From Planctomycetota bacterium (GTDB taxonomy: Bacteria > Planctomycetota > JAJSAM01), in the NCBI GenBank assembly GCA_025459285.1, contig JALOQY010000016.1:1-39418 (forward strand): 39,418 bases of DNA. Direction: 5' to 3'. The notes below the pieces were generated by a model that searched no databases, was not told where the DNA came from, and worked only from the letters and a program-made list of their open reading frames with translations. The stretch's first letter is position 1, and each line of letters opens with the position of its first letter. Shown piece by piece: positions 30,365 through 35,074 of this stretch. The translations under genes were made by a program, and so were the position numbers.

Positions 30365-31126
30365 ATGGGAGAGAACCTGAACCTCGACCGGGCGGCCGCT
30401 CTGGAAGCGGACTTCATGACACGGGTTTCGGCGAGTGTCGCGCGCACGGACACCTTCCCGGTCACGGGGCGGCTCCGGCGCCGGGCGCGACGCGACGAGG
30501 ACTACCCGCCGGATTTCGAGGACGAAGTGCGGCGGCTCCTCCTCGCCGAGGGGCTCCTCGCGGGGGAGGTCCCGGAGCGCCTGCCCCGCGGGGCTCGGGC
30601 GCTGTGGACCGTGCGGCGCTGGCCTCTGGTCGGCCGGCCCTCGCTCCTGATCGCGGCCGGGGTGCGCCACGCGTTCCGGGCGCTCGCCCTGTCGCTCCCC
30701 GCGCCACCGCTTCCCGCGGCGGAGGGGCTGACCGTCCTGCCCCCGGACCGGGGTTCGCCCGTCTCCGCCGTGGCGCTGTCCTCCTCGGGATGGGCCGGCC
30801 GGCCCGGGGAGGTTCCGGCCGGAACGGAGCTGTGGCTCGTGGAGCCCGCGCCGGGCGGGGGGTTCCGGTTGGCCTTCGGGCCCGCCCGGCCTCTGCCGGA
30901 GCACTTCGCCCTGGAGACGGAGACGGAACTCCTCCGCCGCGCCGCGCGCCACACCGCCGCCCGGAGAGCCGATCTGGTCCTCCACGGCCTCCCCGCGGAC
31001 CGGGTCGCCGCGGAGACCGGGGTGCCGCTCATGCTCGTAGAGCGGGCCTTCCGCGATGAAGCGGCCCGTGACGAGTTCCTGCTCCTGCGGGAAGAAGACG
31101 GTACGCTGGTGCTGAGGAGGGCCTGA
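30365..31126 (+). CDS. Hypothetical protein with possible C-terminal winged-helix domain; first gene of the ESCRT-like operon
   Basis: MGENLNLDRAAALEADFMTRV...; C-term ADLVLHGLPADRVAAETGVPLMLVERAFRDEAARDEFLLLREEDGTLVLRRA reads as helix-turn-helix plus beta-wing; zero-gap with next CDS. Confidence 0.75.
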   Translation: MGENLNLDRAAALEADFMTRVSASVARTDTFPVTGRLRRRARRDEDYPPDFEDEVRRLLLAEGLLAGEVPERLPRGARALWTVRRWPLVGRPSLLIAAGVRHAFRALALSLPAPPLPAAEGLTVLPPDRGSPVSAVALSSSGWAGRPGEVPAGTELWLVEPAPGGGFRLAFGPARPLPEHFALETETELLRRAARHTAARRADLVLHGLPADRVAAETGVPLMLVERAFRDEAARDEFLLLREEDGTLVLRRA

Positions 31127-31765
31127 TTGTCCATACTCGACCGGATCCGGAAGCTCTTCGGCGGGGAGGAAATCCCCGAGGAGGCCGCCCGCATCTACCG
31201 GATGAGCCGGGACGAGCGGGAGGCCCTCGAACGCTTCGAGGAAGAGCGGGGCCGCGCCCACCGCCATCGCCTGACGCTGATGGATGACGTGTCCGCGCTG
31301 GCCGAAGAGGAGGAGAAACTGCTCGACAGGGGGCGGGCGGAGACCTCCGGCGTCCGCCGCCGGCTCGTGGCGAAGCAGGTAGCGGAGGTGCGGTCGGCGG
31401 TGGAGGCGCTGCTCCATCGCGTGGACCTCCTGACGCGACGGATCGCCGTCTTCGACCGGCAGACGGGGCTCATCCGGGACCGTGCGGTACTGGCCGCGCC
31501 GCTTCCCGGCCTCGACGAGGTCGAACGGACGGCGGGCGACGCGCTGGCCGCCCGGCGGAGCTTCGAGGAGGTGGAGGCGGCCTCGGAGCTGGCCGCGGCC
31601 GTCGCGCGGCCAACGGACGTGAGCGAAGCGGAGCGGCGGGCGGAACGCGCCTTCGCCGCGGAGCACGAGATCGAACCCTCGTTCGAAGAGATGCTCGCCG
31701 AAGAGGAGGCGCGCCTCCGTCCCCGGCGATCGGACGAGAAAGCCACGGAGGCGCTCGAGGGGTGA
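31127..31765 (+). CDS. Small coiled-coil protein A, putative divergent ESCRT-III/Snf7-like
   Basis: TTG start directly after the previous stop; amphipathic N-terminus MSILDRIRKLFGG; long helices; VRRRLVAKQVAEVRSAVEALL resembles protein B; acidic C-terminus. Confidence 0.75.
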   Translation: MSILDRIRKLFGGEEIPEEAARIYRMSRDEREALERFEEERGRAHRHRLTLMDDVSALAEEEEKLLDRGRAETSGVRRRLVAKQVAEVRSAVEALLHRVDLLTRRIAVFDRQTGLIRDRAVLAAPLPGLDEVERTAGDALAARRSFEEVEAASELAAAVARPTDVSEAERRAERAFAAEHEIEPSFEEMLAEEEARLRPRRSDEKATEALEG

Positions 31766-31769
31766 ACGG

Positions 31770-32387
31770 ATGGGATTTCTCGACTGGTTCCGCCGTGACA
31801 AGAAACTGACCGACTACTCACCGGAGGACCTTCGCCGCGAGGAGGGGAGGCTCGAAATCCGGGAGGCGCAGGCCGTGTCCCGGCTGGAGAAGGCCGAGGA
31901 GGCGCGCAAGGAGGTCTTCCGGCAGGGACTGGCCGTGAAGTCCCCGGTCCGGCGGCGGATCCTCGCCCGGAAGTACGAGGAGAGGGAGACGGAAATCCGG
32001 CGCCTCGAATCGGAGATCTCGCGGATCCTCAAGGAGAACATGACCGTCTCCGCGCTGCGCTACCGGCTGGAGCGCAAGGGCAAGTCGGAGTCGGCGCTCC
32101 TGAAGAAGATCGGAGAGGCGGACGTCGAGGCGCTCCGCGAGCTCGTGGAGAACGACGGGGTCGGCGAGGAGATGTACCGGGAGAAACTCACGACCCTCCT
32201 CGGCGTGCTCGAAGGGGCGGAGGCCGAGGCCGACCCGCTCGCGGCCGTGGGCCGGGAGGGCCGCGCCGTCCTCGAGGTCTGGGAGCGCATGGACCAGGGC
32301 GCGATCGCCTCCGTGGAGGAGGGGCTCCGGGAGGCCCGGGACCTCGCCGGTGGAACGGTCCCCGAATCGGGGGAAAGCCAGGCCTGA
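31770..32387 (+). CDS. Small coiled-coil protein B, putative divergent ESCRT-III/Snf7-like
   Basis: MGFLDWFRRDKKL N-terminus, VRRRILARKYEERETEIRRLESEISRILKENMTVSAL helix, C-terminal SVEEGLREARDL resembling the MIM1-like motif of protein C. Confidence 0.77.
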   Translation: MGFLDWFRRDKKLTDYSPEDLRREEGRLEIREAQAVSRLEKAEEARKEVFRQGLAVKSPVRRRILARKYEERETEIRRLESEISRILKENMTVSALRYRLERKGKSESALLKKIGEADVEALRELVENDGVGEEMYREKLTTLLGVLEGAEAEADPLAAVGREGRAVLEVWERMDQGAIASVEEGLREARDLAGGTVPESGESQA

Positions 32388-32388
32388 C

Positions 32389-32994
32389 ATGGGGATCTTC
32401 AAGTCGAAGGCCGAGAAGCGGATCGAGTGGGAGATCACGGTCCGCAAGGGGCTCGCGCGCATCCGCCGGCAGATCGGGAGCCTCGAGCGGAACGAGCAGG
32501 GCTTCGTGGCGAAGGCGCGGCGCGCGAAGGCGATGGGGGCCGCCGACCAGTTCGCGTTCCTCCGGGCGACGCTGAAGAAGACGGCGTCCCAGCGGCGACT
32601 CCTCGAGCGGCAGCTCCTGAACCTGGAGACCGCGGTGCAGATCCGCGACCAGGTCGAGGCGAACGCCTCCTTTGCCGAGGCCATGGGCGCCGTGAGCCGG
32701 GCCATCGGACAGATGTTCTCGTCCGTGGACCTGACGAAGACCCAGATGCAGTTCGAGAAGGCGATGGGGCAGGCGCAGAGCATGGAGGAGCGCGTCGCCC
32801 TCTTCCTCGACATGTCGGCGGGAGCGATGACCGACTACGAGGGAGCGCCGGAGGATCTCGTGCCGGACGACGAGGTGGACCGCATGCTCGGCGAGGAGGC
32901 CGCCGCCGCGGAGGGCGCGGTGAACGACCGCGAGATCGCCGAGGGGCTGGCCGCCGTCCGGGACGAACTCCGGAAGGACCGGGAGCGGAAATAG
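32389..32994 (+). CDS. Small coiled-coil protein C, putative ESCRT-III (CHMP/Vps2-like) subunit
   Basis: Basic N-terminal helices, ANASFAEAMGAVSRAIGQMFSSVDLTKTQMQFEKAMGQAQSMEERV resembling CHMP1/CHMP2 alpha3-alpha4, EVDRMLGEEAAAAEGAV alpha5-like, C-terminal DREIAEGLAAVRDEL MIM1-like. Confidence 0.82.
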   Translation: MGIFKSKAEKRIEWEITVRKGLARIRRQIGSLERNEQGFVAKARRAKAMGAADQFAFLRATLKKTASQRRLLERQLLNLETAVQIRDQVEANASFAEAMGAVSRAIGQMFSSVDLTKTQMQFEKAMGQAQSMEERVALFLDMSAGAMTDYEGAPEDLVPDDEVDRMLGEEAAAAEGAVNDREIAEGLAAVRDELRKDRERK

Positions 32995-33007: not shown

Positions 33008-34087
33008 GTGCTGGACTTCGAACTGCGCAACTTCCGGCGACTGCGCGAAGAGGGCCTTGCCGCGTTCCGCGCGGGGCGCCGCCGGGAGGCGCGGCTCACG
33101 CTCCTTCGTGCGTCGGAGGCGCTCTTCCGGATCGCCTCGAAGTCCGACGAGCCCTTCCGGTCGGAGCGGAGCCGGGGGGCGCGCGAACTCCTCGGCCTCG
33201 CGAGGAGCATCTCCGGGGAAGCGCCCGCGGAGGGGGTGGGGGGCGAGGGCGCGCGCTTCGTCCCCGCCGAGCGGCCCGCCGTCACCTTCGCTTCCGTGGC
33301 CGGGCTCGACGAGGTGAAGGAGGAGATCCGGCTCCGGATGGTCTACCCCTTCCTCCACCCGGAGGCCGCGGCACGGTACGGGGTGCGGACCGGCGGCGGG
33401 CTCCTCCTTTACGGGCCGCCGGGCACCGGGAAGACGCTCCTCGCCCGGGCCACGGCGGGGGAGATCGACGCGGCCTTCTACACCGTGCGCCCCTCGGACG
33501 TCCTGTCGAAGTGGGTGGGGGAGGCGGAGAAAAACGTCGCCGCCCTCTTCGCCGAGGCGCGTGCGCGGCCGCGATCGGTGGTCTTCATCGACGAGGCGGA
33601 GGCGCTCGCCCCGGTGCGCACGGGTGACGCCGGCTCGGTGATGAGCCGGGTCGTCCCGCAGTTCCTCGCCGAACTGGAGGGGGTCGCGGGACGCGGCACG
33701 AACGCCCTCCTCTTCATCGGGGCGACGAACGCCCCCTGGAACCTCGACCCGGCGATCCTCCGGCCCGGGCGGTTCGACGAGTTGGTGTACGTCCCCCTGC
33801 CCGACGCCGAGGCGCGCGCGGGGATCCTCGCCCTCGAACTGGCCGGCAAGCCGCTGGTGCCGGAGGCGGACCTGGAGGCCCTGGCCGCCGCGCTCGACGG
33901 TTACTCCGGCGCCGACCTCCGGCTCGTGGTGGAGAAGGCCGTGGGGGAGTCGTTCCTGTCGGAGGTCCGGGGGGGCGCGCCACGCCGGATCGGGGTCGAG
34001 GATCTGCTGGCGGCGGCCCGGGAAGTCGCGCCGTCCGTGGCCCCGGAGGCGCTGAAGCGGTACGAGGAGTGGGCCGGGGCGGCGTGA
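33008..34087 (+). CDS. Vps4-like AAA ATPase with N-terminal MIT-like domain
   Basis: N-term about 65 aa three-helix MIT-like; VTFASVAGLDEVKEEIRLRMVYPFLHP, LLLYGPPGTGKTLLARATAGE, SDVLSKWVGEAEKNV pore loop 1, VVFIDEAEAL, GATNAPWNLDPAILRPGRFDELVYVPLPD, DGYSGADLRLVVEKAV, terminal helix PEALKRYEEWAG. Confidence 0.88.
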   Translation: MLDFELRNFRRLREEGLAAFRAGRRREARLTLLRASEALFRIASKSDEPFRSERSRGARELLGLARSISGEAPAEGVGGEGARFVPAERPAVTFASVAGLDEVKEEIRLRMVYPFLHPEAAARYGVRTGGGLLLYGPPGTGKTLLARATAGEIDAAFYTVRPSDVLSKWVGEAEKNVAALFAEARARPRSVVFIDEAEALAPVRTGDAGSVMSRVVPQFLAELEGVAGRGTNALLFIGATNAPWNLDPAILRPGRFDELVYVPLPDAEARAGILALELAGKPLVPEADLEALAAALDGYSGADLRLVVEKAVGESFLSEVRGGAPRRIGVEDLLAAAREVAPSVAPEALKRYEEWAGAA

Positions 34088-34105: not shown

Positions 34106-35074
34106 ATGGAAGCCCGGACGCGGAAGACCGGCGCGCGGTGGGTGTTCCTGCGGGTGTACTTCATCGCGTCGACGGTCGGGTGGTTCGGCGCCGGGGCGGT
34201 CTGCGCGACCCTGATGCAGAGCGGCGATCCCCTCTTCCTGATCCCCTTCGGGACGATGCTGCTCTGCGTCCCGGGCGTGATCATGATGTTCGGGCTTTTT
34301 GTGTTCCGGGTGCCGTACTGTGCCTTCGGTCCCCTCCGGCGGACCCCCTGGCCCCCGGGACCGCCGGCCCTCTCCCGGAGGGGAGGCCGGATCGGCTGGT
34401 GGTTGAGGGGGTCGTACACGTTCCACGTCTGGCCGGAGGGGATCGGCTTCTCCGCCCCGCTCCTCGGCCGGGGCTTCGCGCGACGCGAGGAGGTGCGGAG
34501 CGTGGGCCGCTCCGGGCGCCTCCGGCGCGTCGAGCACGCCTCGCCGGAGGTCCGGGGGGCGCTCATGGTCCCGGCGGAGGCGGCCGAGGCGCTGGCCCGG
34601 GTGCTCGACGCGCCGGCTCCTCCTCCGACCCCGGCCGGAACGGTCCGGCCATTCCGTCCGCCGCGTCCCGAGCGGATCCTCTACGCGCTGGCCGGGGGCT
34701 TCGCGGCCGTCGTCTATGGCGTGCTCGTGTGGACCTCCCTCTCCGCCCATTCCGCCCGGGGCGACATCCGGGGATTCGTCGACGGTTGCGGGCCGGAGGC
34801 CGTCGTCGTCGTGGACGGCATGACGCTTCCCCGCAACCGCGAGTTGCTCCCCCTCCTCCGGGACCTCGATCGCCGGCTCCCTTCCCGAGGCGGGGGGCGG
34901 CTCCGTCTTCCGGCGCGGATCATCGACGGGGCGCGCCGGCTCGACTTCGAACTGGCCCGGGTCCGCTCCGATCCCCGGTGCTGGCTCGTCTACCTTCCGA
35001 CCGGGGCCGCGACCGCGTCGAACCCGATCGGCAGCTTGCGGACGGAGGTCCTCGGCCCGATCACGACCGACTGA
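34106..35074 (+). CDS. Hypothetical membrane protein with possible PH-like domain between TM segments
   Basis: TM segments WVFLRVYFIASTVGWFGAGAVCATLM, PLFLIPFGTMLLCVPGVIMMFGLFVF and ILYALAGGFAAVVYGVLVW; YTFHVWPEGIGFSAPLLGRGFARREEVRSV...PAEAAEALARVL PH-like pattern. Confidence 0.7.
   Translation: MEARTRKTGARWVFLRVYFIASTVGWFGAGAVCATLMQSGDPLFLIPFGTMLLCVPGVIMMFGLFVFRVPYCAFGPLRRTPWPPGPPALSRRGGRIGWWLRGSYTFHVWPEGIGFSAPLLGRGFARREEVRSVGRSGRLRRVEHASPEVRGALMVPAEAAEALARVLDAPAPPPTPAGTVRPFRPPRPERILYALAGGFAAVVYGVLVWTSLSAHSARGDIRGFVDGCGPEAVVVVDGMTLPRNRELLPLLRDLDRRLPSRGGGRLRLPARIIDGARRLDFELARVRSDPRCWLVYLPTGAATASNPIGSLRTEVLGPITTD

Follow-up and report, generated by a model that had tools for sequence, protein, structure and literature searches.

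A planctomycete operon pairing a Snf7-family ESCRT-III protein that bears a MIM1-like tail with an ATPase of predicted MIT-AAA architecture

Eukaryotic ESCRT-III proteins of the CHMP2/CHMP1/CHMP3 (Vps2/24/46) class combine a Snf7-type core with a MIM1 helix at the extreme C-terminus, and their ATPase, Vps4, has an N-terminal MIT domain followed by one AAA domain. In the archaeal Cdv system, the ESCRT-III gene (CdvB) adjoins that of a MIT-AAA ATPase (CdvC), and CdvB proteins use MIM2 and were reported to be without MIM1 (PMC7240154). Asgard Vps2/24/46 proteins have a MIM1-like tail with Ile in place of Leu (PMC7240154), and Asgard operons include ESCRT-II winged-helix genes (PMC11237479). In bacteria, the superfamily comprises PspA/Vipp1/IM30, PspA and Snf7 being homologous families (PMC8281802). 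A 2023 review described bacteria as without a clear Vps4 homologue (PMC7615534), and Makarova et al. 2024 placed ESCRT homologues in archaea and eukaryotes, not in bacteria (PMC10936438). The PSP survey described some operons in which bacterial Snf7-clade genes accompany AAA ATPases, as well as transfers of Vps4-like ATPases and bacterial Vps4 genes without snf7; its main text contains no Planctomycetota, no MIT-MIM pairing and neither of the genes called A and B below (PMC11237479).

The window analysed here, a stretch of 39,418 nucleotides, is a segment of a bacterial chromosome in which ubiE, ubiX, ubiA, dnaX, ybaB, recR and rpoN flank an operon of four genes read in the same direction, all on the + strand. 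The first encodes protein A (31127..31765, 212 aa, TTG start), which is alpha-helical and is kept at this place of the operon among its homologues, and the second protein B (31770..32387, 205 aa), also alpha-helical. The third encodes protein C (32389..32994, 201 aa), of the ESCRT-III/Snf7 family, and 13 bases downstream of it starts the gene for D (33008..34087, 359 aa, GTG start), a MIT-AAA, Vps4-like ATPase. The gene order A-B-(D2)-C-D, or subsets of it, was found again in dozens of Planctomycetota loci. D2 is a second MIT-like AAA ATPase, with pore loop SKYFGE, encoded directly upstream of C in many relatives (for example L048 6568-7761 and L057 9179-10414) and missing from the window. Upstream, the gene of a 253 aa protein, U (30365..31126, + strand), adjoins A and is possibly part of the operon; in L048, a weak homologue of U sits at the corresponding position (E 0.002).

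This arrangement shares with the eukaryotic system the Snf7-type core and C-terminal MIM1-like helix of C, and the succession of a MIT fold and one AAA domain in D. It differs in being bacterial, in the Gly that usually replaces the MIM1 arginine in C, in the AAA core of D, whose sequence is nearest to Cdc48, and in an operon that also holds A, B and a further ATPase; no ESCRT-0/I/II gene was recognised near the planctomycete operon. With the archaeal Cdv system it has in common an ESCRT-III gene adjoining that of a MIT-AAA ATPase, as well as fold matches of C to CdvB2 filaments and of D to the Sulfolobus Vps4 MIT domain. However, C has a MIM1-like tail whereas CdvB uses MIM2 (PMC7240154), no CdvA was recognised, and D scores far below the cut-off of the CdvC model (203 against 650 bits). 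The tail of C is like that of Asgard Vps2/24/46, including Ile in place of Leu, but the planctomycete operon holds A and B where Asgard operons have their ESCRT-II genes (PMC7240154, PMC11237479). Like the neighbourhoods of the PSP survey, it places a bacterial Snf7-clade gene with an AAA ATPase; unlike this operon, the cases described there are TM-bearing Snf7 proteins with transporters, or Vps4 without snf7 (PMC11237479). A search of mainly open-access journal literature turned up no description of an ESCRT-III operon with a MIT-ATPase from Planctomycetota, and for that reason we consider only provisionally that the operon is a new bacterial variant of the ESCRT-III/Vps4 machine.

Pfam, PDB profile comparison and fold all identify protein C as an ESCRT-III (Snf7) protein. 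The Pfam Snf7 model matched its core, residues 18-137 (32440-32799), with a marginal pass (27.6 bits against a cut-off of 27.3, E 2.7e-6), and matched 6 of 15 members of the C family at E<=0.01. When the profile of the family was compared with the PDB, 8 of the 9 sequences found at E<=5 were ESCRT-III chains, with Snf7, CHMP3 and CHMP2A at E 0.0016 to 0.15 and an unrelated chain at 1.7. An AlphaFold2 model containing C (mean pLDDT 90.7) shows the long helical hairpin of the ESCRT-III fold, with helices at 7-48, 52-109 and 115-148. Foldseek placed CdvB2 filaments and CHMP2A on top (7zcg_B, probability 1.00, TM 0.67 on target), although neither with C nor with the N-terminal domain of D did any match reach E<=0.001. 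Relatives of C in named genomes come almost all from Planctomycetota MAGs, the closest one, 69% identical, being from a Planctomycetota bacterium. Homologues also occur in records labelled Sumerlaeota and Hydrogenedentes (L070, L073), which suggests either that the family is more widely distributed among bacteria or that the bins are contaminated. Viral relatives were looked for, and none was found.

Since PspA and Snf7 are homologous (PMC8281802), C might be a mislabelled PspA/Vipp1, that is, the already known bacterial ESCRT-III with nothing new about it. We hold this to be extremely unlikely: Pfam assigns C to Snf7, with no match to PspA_IM30 at E<=1, PspA is encoded as a separate gene in 19 of the 44 C-carrying genomes, and a MIT-AAA partner of PspA is not reported in the literature surveyed. 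The missing PspA match and the separate PspA genes alongside C are our grounds for treating it as distinct from PspA. The same co-occurrence led us to reject the idea that C replaces PspA.

The presence of a MIT-like domain in the adjoining ATPase had been proposed in the first-pass annotation, and the predicted fold of D bears it out. Pfam MIT gave no match to the D of the window, found 1 of 29 family members weakly, and returned nothing from the genome to which the window belongs. Nevertheless, AlphaFold2 predicted three helices (2-21, 25-45 and 50-68) for residues 1-76, with pLDDT 93 and pTM 0.79, and residues 1-70 (33008..33217, + strand) correspond to a MIT fold. In Foldseek, a few designed bundles came first, after which MIT domains of the Vps4 family and others predominated, with full-length coverage and TM mostly 0.7-0.86 on target. 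They include the Sulfolobus Vps4 MIT domain 2v6y (TM 0.84/0.85, 1.3 Å), the VPS4B MIT-IST1 structure 4u7y (TM 0.79/0.73, 1.6 Å), MITD1 4a5x (TM 0.82/0.86) and the Vps4p MIT domain. As every E-value was above 0.1, which is expected for an all-helical query of 76 residues, the assignment is based on the TM-scores and on which structures were matched. By predicted fold, then, D has the N-terminal MIT domain of Vps4.

The remainder of D is an AAA core at residues 132-264 (33401..33799, + strand; Pfam AAA, E 2e-36), with Walker A GPPGTGKT and pore-loop region SKWVGEAEK, followed by a Vps4_C-like segment at residues 326-356 (33983..34075, + strand) that PF09336 recognised below its cut-off (18.1 bits against 21.3, E 0.0027). 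By sequence, D is not closest to Vps4 or CdvC: the nearest PDB sequences to its AAA core are Cdc48/p97, and the NCBIfam models for CdvC (203 bits against 650) and CDC48 (216 bits) both matched below their cut-offs. For this reason we call D Vps4-like and do not count it as a member of Vps4/CdvC. This kinship of the AAA core, together with the TPR profile and Pfam matches obtained on the N-terminal domain, could be taken to mean that the N-terminus of D is TPR-like and that the operon encodes a Cdc48-like unfoldase system mechanistically unrelated to ESCRT. We find this improbable, because TPR domains, which also match residues 1-76 in the fold search, do so with less target coverage and a TM of 0.41 on target, well below the MIT domains, and because the partner gene next door encodes an ESCRT-III protein.

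We turn to the tail of C, for which the first-pass annotation had claimed the spacing of the eukaryotic MIM1 consensus, (D/E)xxLxxRLxxL(K/R). The string IAEGLAAVRD is present at residues 183-192 of C (32935-32964), within a C-terminal MIM1-like helix, DREIAEGLAAVRDEL, that starts at residue 180 (32926..32973, + strand), is strongly conserved in homologues and is helical in the model. The segment DREIAEGLAAVR has the hydrophobic spacing of the consensus at the extreme C-terminus, with G, not R, at position 7; after DELRK, the protein runs on with DRERK, 5 residues past the end that had been quoted. Of 29 non-redundant C homologues (under 70% identity), 19 have within their last 32 residues a relaxed form of the motif, [DE]xx[LIVM]xxx[LIVMF]xx[LIVMF][KRED], against 0.7 +/- 0.8 in shuffled sequences, so that the claim stands for C. 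The strict pattern was found in 2 of the 29. Among all 81 C tails, 34 match the relaxed pattern, with D/E at position 1, I/V/M at 4, L at 8 (33 of 34) and I/L/V/M at 11. Position 7 is G in 21 of them, R in 7 and E in 5; a conserved Arg is thus not a property of the C family, and as judged from these sequences G is the majority variant, within this family only. Tails with the canonical R occur in L055, L057, L058, L104, L105 and L122, for example DDEIAERLKKLEKEL (L057) and DAKMGDRLDALRERF (L058). The former presumably resembles the end of human CHMP2A closely, which we mention as a lead only.

The same had been claimed for protein B, with the further proposal that B and C share one deviation from the consensus, co-adapted to the ATPase, so that both would dock to D. 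B does contain VEEGLREARD, at residues 182-191 (32313..32342, + strand), although it does not end there: ten residues, TVPESGESQA, follow LAGG. The best 10-residue window between the B and C tails has 5 identities, a score equalled in 54% of shuffles (p = 0.54). The pattern [IV]xEGLxx[AV]RD is found in 1 of 79 B homologues, namely the window's own, and relaxed MIM1 likewise in 1 of 79. B also has I instead of the acid at MIM1 position 1, and at position 11 an Ala that is invariant in the window-type B subfamily. A B motif that is neither conserved nor MIM1-like leaves no shared co-adapted deviation, and the absence of conservation in B refutes the shared motif; the match to C is, on sequence comparison, a coincidence and a chance look-alike. 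What the tail of window-type B (32280-32342) does have is a conserved signature of its own, WxxMDxGxI......[GA][LF]xxA, with W171, D175, G177 and A189 invariant in the 24 sequences of the subfamily, and this conserved tail is unrelated to MIM1. It may have some binding role, and to that extent favours docking of both proteins, as does the presence of the two strings; we nevertheless judge such joint docking through a shared motif to be very unlikely. The second B subfamily, homologous to the first (hhalign 94.7%), ends in another conserved segment.

Protein A had been credited with a weak MIM1 candidate. Relaxed MIM1 was found in 3 of 42 A homologues, and the candidate is not a MIM1. The residues in question belong to a short motif, [SPDT]-hydrophobic-[ED][ED]x[LIM], that 8 of 27 non-redundant A sequences carry (0.5 in shuffles) and that is a candidate for a separate docking motif; its forms include SFEEML in the window and SLEEEL, PIEEEL and SIEELM in distant relatives. 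Neither A nor B gave a Pfam match or an informative PDB match, and the possibility that either is a detectable relative of Snf7 was rejected, the probability of alignment with C being 11.6% for B (E 0.0026) and 2.7% for A.

Whether the tail of C goes together with D was scored across genomes. D was called from operon-linked matches in a first set; in a second, matches had to reach about E 1e-85, a cut-off chosen because weaker matches, near 1e-70, are a different paralogue. With position 12 of the motif restricted after a first scoring, the MIM1-like tail was present in 22 of the 23 D-bearing genomes and in 0 of the 12 without D; the latter belong mainly to a single family, with one or two further families besides, and represent about two or three lineages. 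In the single exception among genomes with D (G161), C is interrupted by a stop codon. With position 12 left free, 2 of the 12 genomes without D matched (DKEIAKELGEMG and DKEIARELGEMG). At the level of loci, D lies nearby in 34 of the 46 informative cases whose tail has MIM1 or an L-x3-L-x2-L-[KR] core, against 2 of 26 for other tails, and several of the 12 core-positive loci lacking D seem to come from genome families that have D elsewhere. Most Phycisphaerae with D have another tail, keeping only the L-x3-L-x2-L-K core. A second Phycisphaerae tail type, LDELESEIAKELGATKQKD, accompanies the absence of D from the locus (L115, L120, L123, L124, L126, L131, L132 and L135).

The C-terminal region of ESCRT-III proteins is also known to fold back on the core. 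The conserved tail might thus be a regulatory or autoinhibitory helix, or a ligand of D2 or of A/B, in a C that is ESCRT-III-like and does not bind the N-terminus of D. A model of C fused to the MIT domain of D, for which the fusion alignment was built with full-length C, left the tail undocked in one continuous helix (160-227) that gives no view of docking. Moreover, in a distance test tail and MIT domain did not co-vary beyond what the other parts of the proteins show (partial r 0.16, against 0.32 for tail-AAA). Both observations are compatible with a tail that does not bind D, but the MIM1 spacing sits at the extreme C-terminus, and the tail tracks D even though the family without D retains D2. 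On balance we regard this alternative as unlikely.

The locus is therefore read here as a probable bacterial ESCRT-III/Vps4-type membrane-remodelling module, in which C would be recruited to the MIT ATPase D by its MIM1-like tail. From the homology of C, the predicted MIT fold, the conservation of tail and operon and the co-occurrence of tail and D, we infer binding, polymerisation, disassembly and a cellular job that may be membrane repair, vesiculation or division. C, as a Snf7-family filament protein, would assemble on membranes. Its amphipathic C-terminal helix, from residue 180, would act as the MIM1-like ligand of the MIT domain, through which the tail would hand C subunits to D, and D would use ATP to extract or reshape them from membrane-bound filaments, in the manner of Vps4. 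For A and B, a role as co-factors or as divergent partners in the filament is probable. Mutation of L64 in VPS4A blocks MIM1 (PMC11218997), and L62 of D is the residue inferred to align with it; if the tail of C occupies the helix 2/3 groove, L62 should be essential.

A Snf7-type ESCRT-III protein with a MIM1-like tail and a MIT-AAA ATPase in bacteria would widen the known range of the ATP-driven form of this machine. It would also bear on whether MIT-MIM1 recruitment is older than Asgard archaea, was transferred, or arose by convergence. The operon would, in addition, offer candidate membrane-remodelling genes for a phylum whose internal membranes are unusual and in which FtsZ is almost absent. 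C was detected in 46 of 246 Planctomycetota genomes and FtsZ in 5 of 246; none of the 43 C-bearing genomes tested (43/43) has FtsZ, and the genome of the window (G000, 88% complete) gave neither FtsZ/tubulin nor PspA/Vipp1. A universal replacement of FtsZ by the system was rejected, C being in 46 of 246 genomes and FtsZ missing from nearly all. The data leave room for a role in division without pointing to one, because FtsZ is missing also from most genomes without C. The stronger proposal, that the ESCRT-III/Vps4 machine of Planctomycetota is genuine, has been maintained for long, recruits by MIT-MIM1 as in eukaryotes and performs membrane scission (possibly budding or division) in cells that have no FtsZ, is made tentatively, and we consider it rather doubtful.

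Some features of the surroundings were recorded as well. Near some of the operons, downstream in relatives (L048 9513-14259, L057 3131-7374, L047 676-1590), lie genes for an SPFH-domain (SPFH/Band_7-like) protein, a TM protein, a PDZ protein, a Memo-like protein and a Ser/Thr kinase that has an RDD domain; SPFH proteins were previously tied to archaeal ESCRT loci and bacterial PspA loci (PMC11188069). Downstream of D in the window, gene T (34106-35074, 322 aa) encodes possibly a membrane protein, with no family match above cut-off, and relatives carry other genes in its place. Finally, each of A, B and C starts with a few residues of hydrophobic and basic character (MSILDRIRKLF, MGFLDWFRRDK and MGIFKSK, respectively), which recalls the membrane-binding N-terminus of ESCRT-III proteins.
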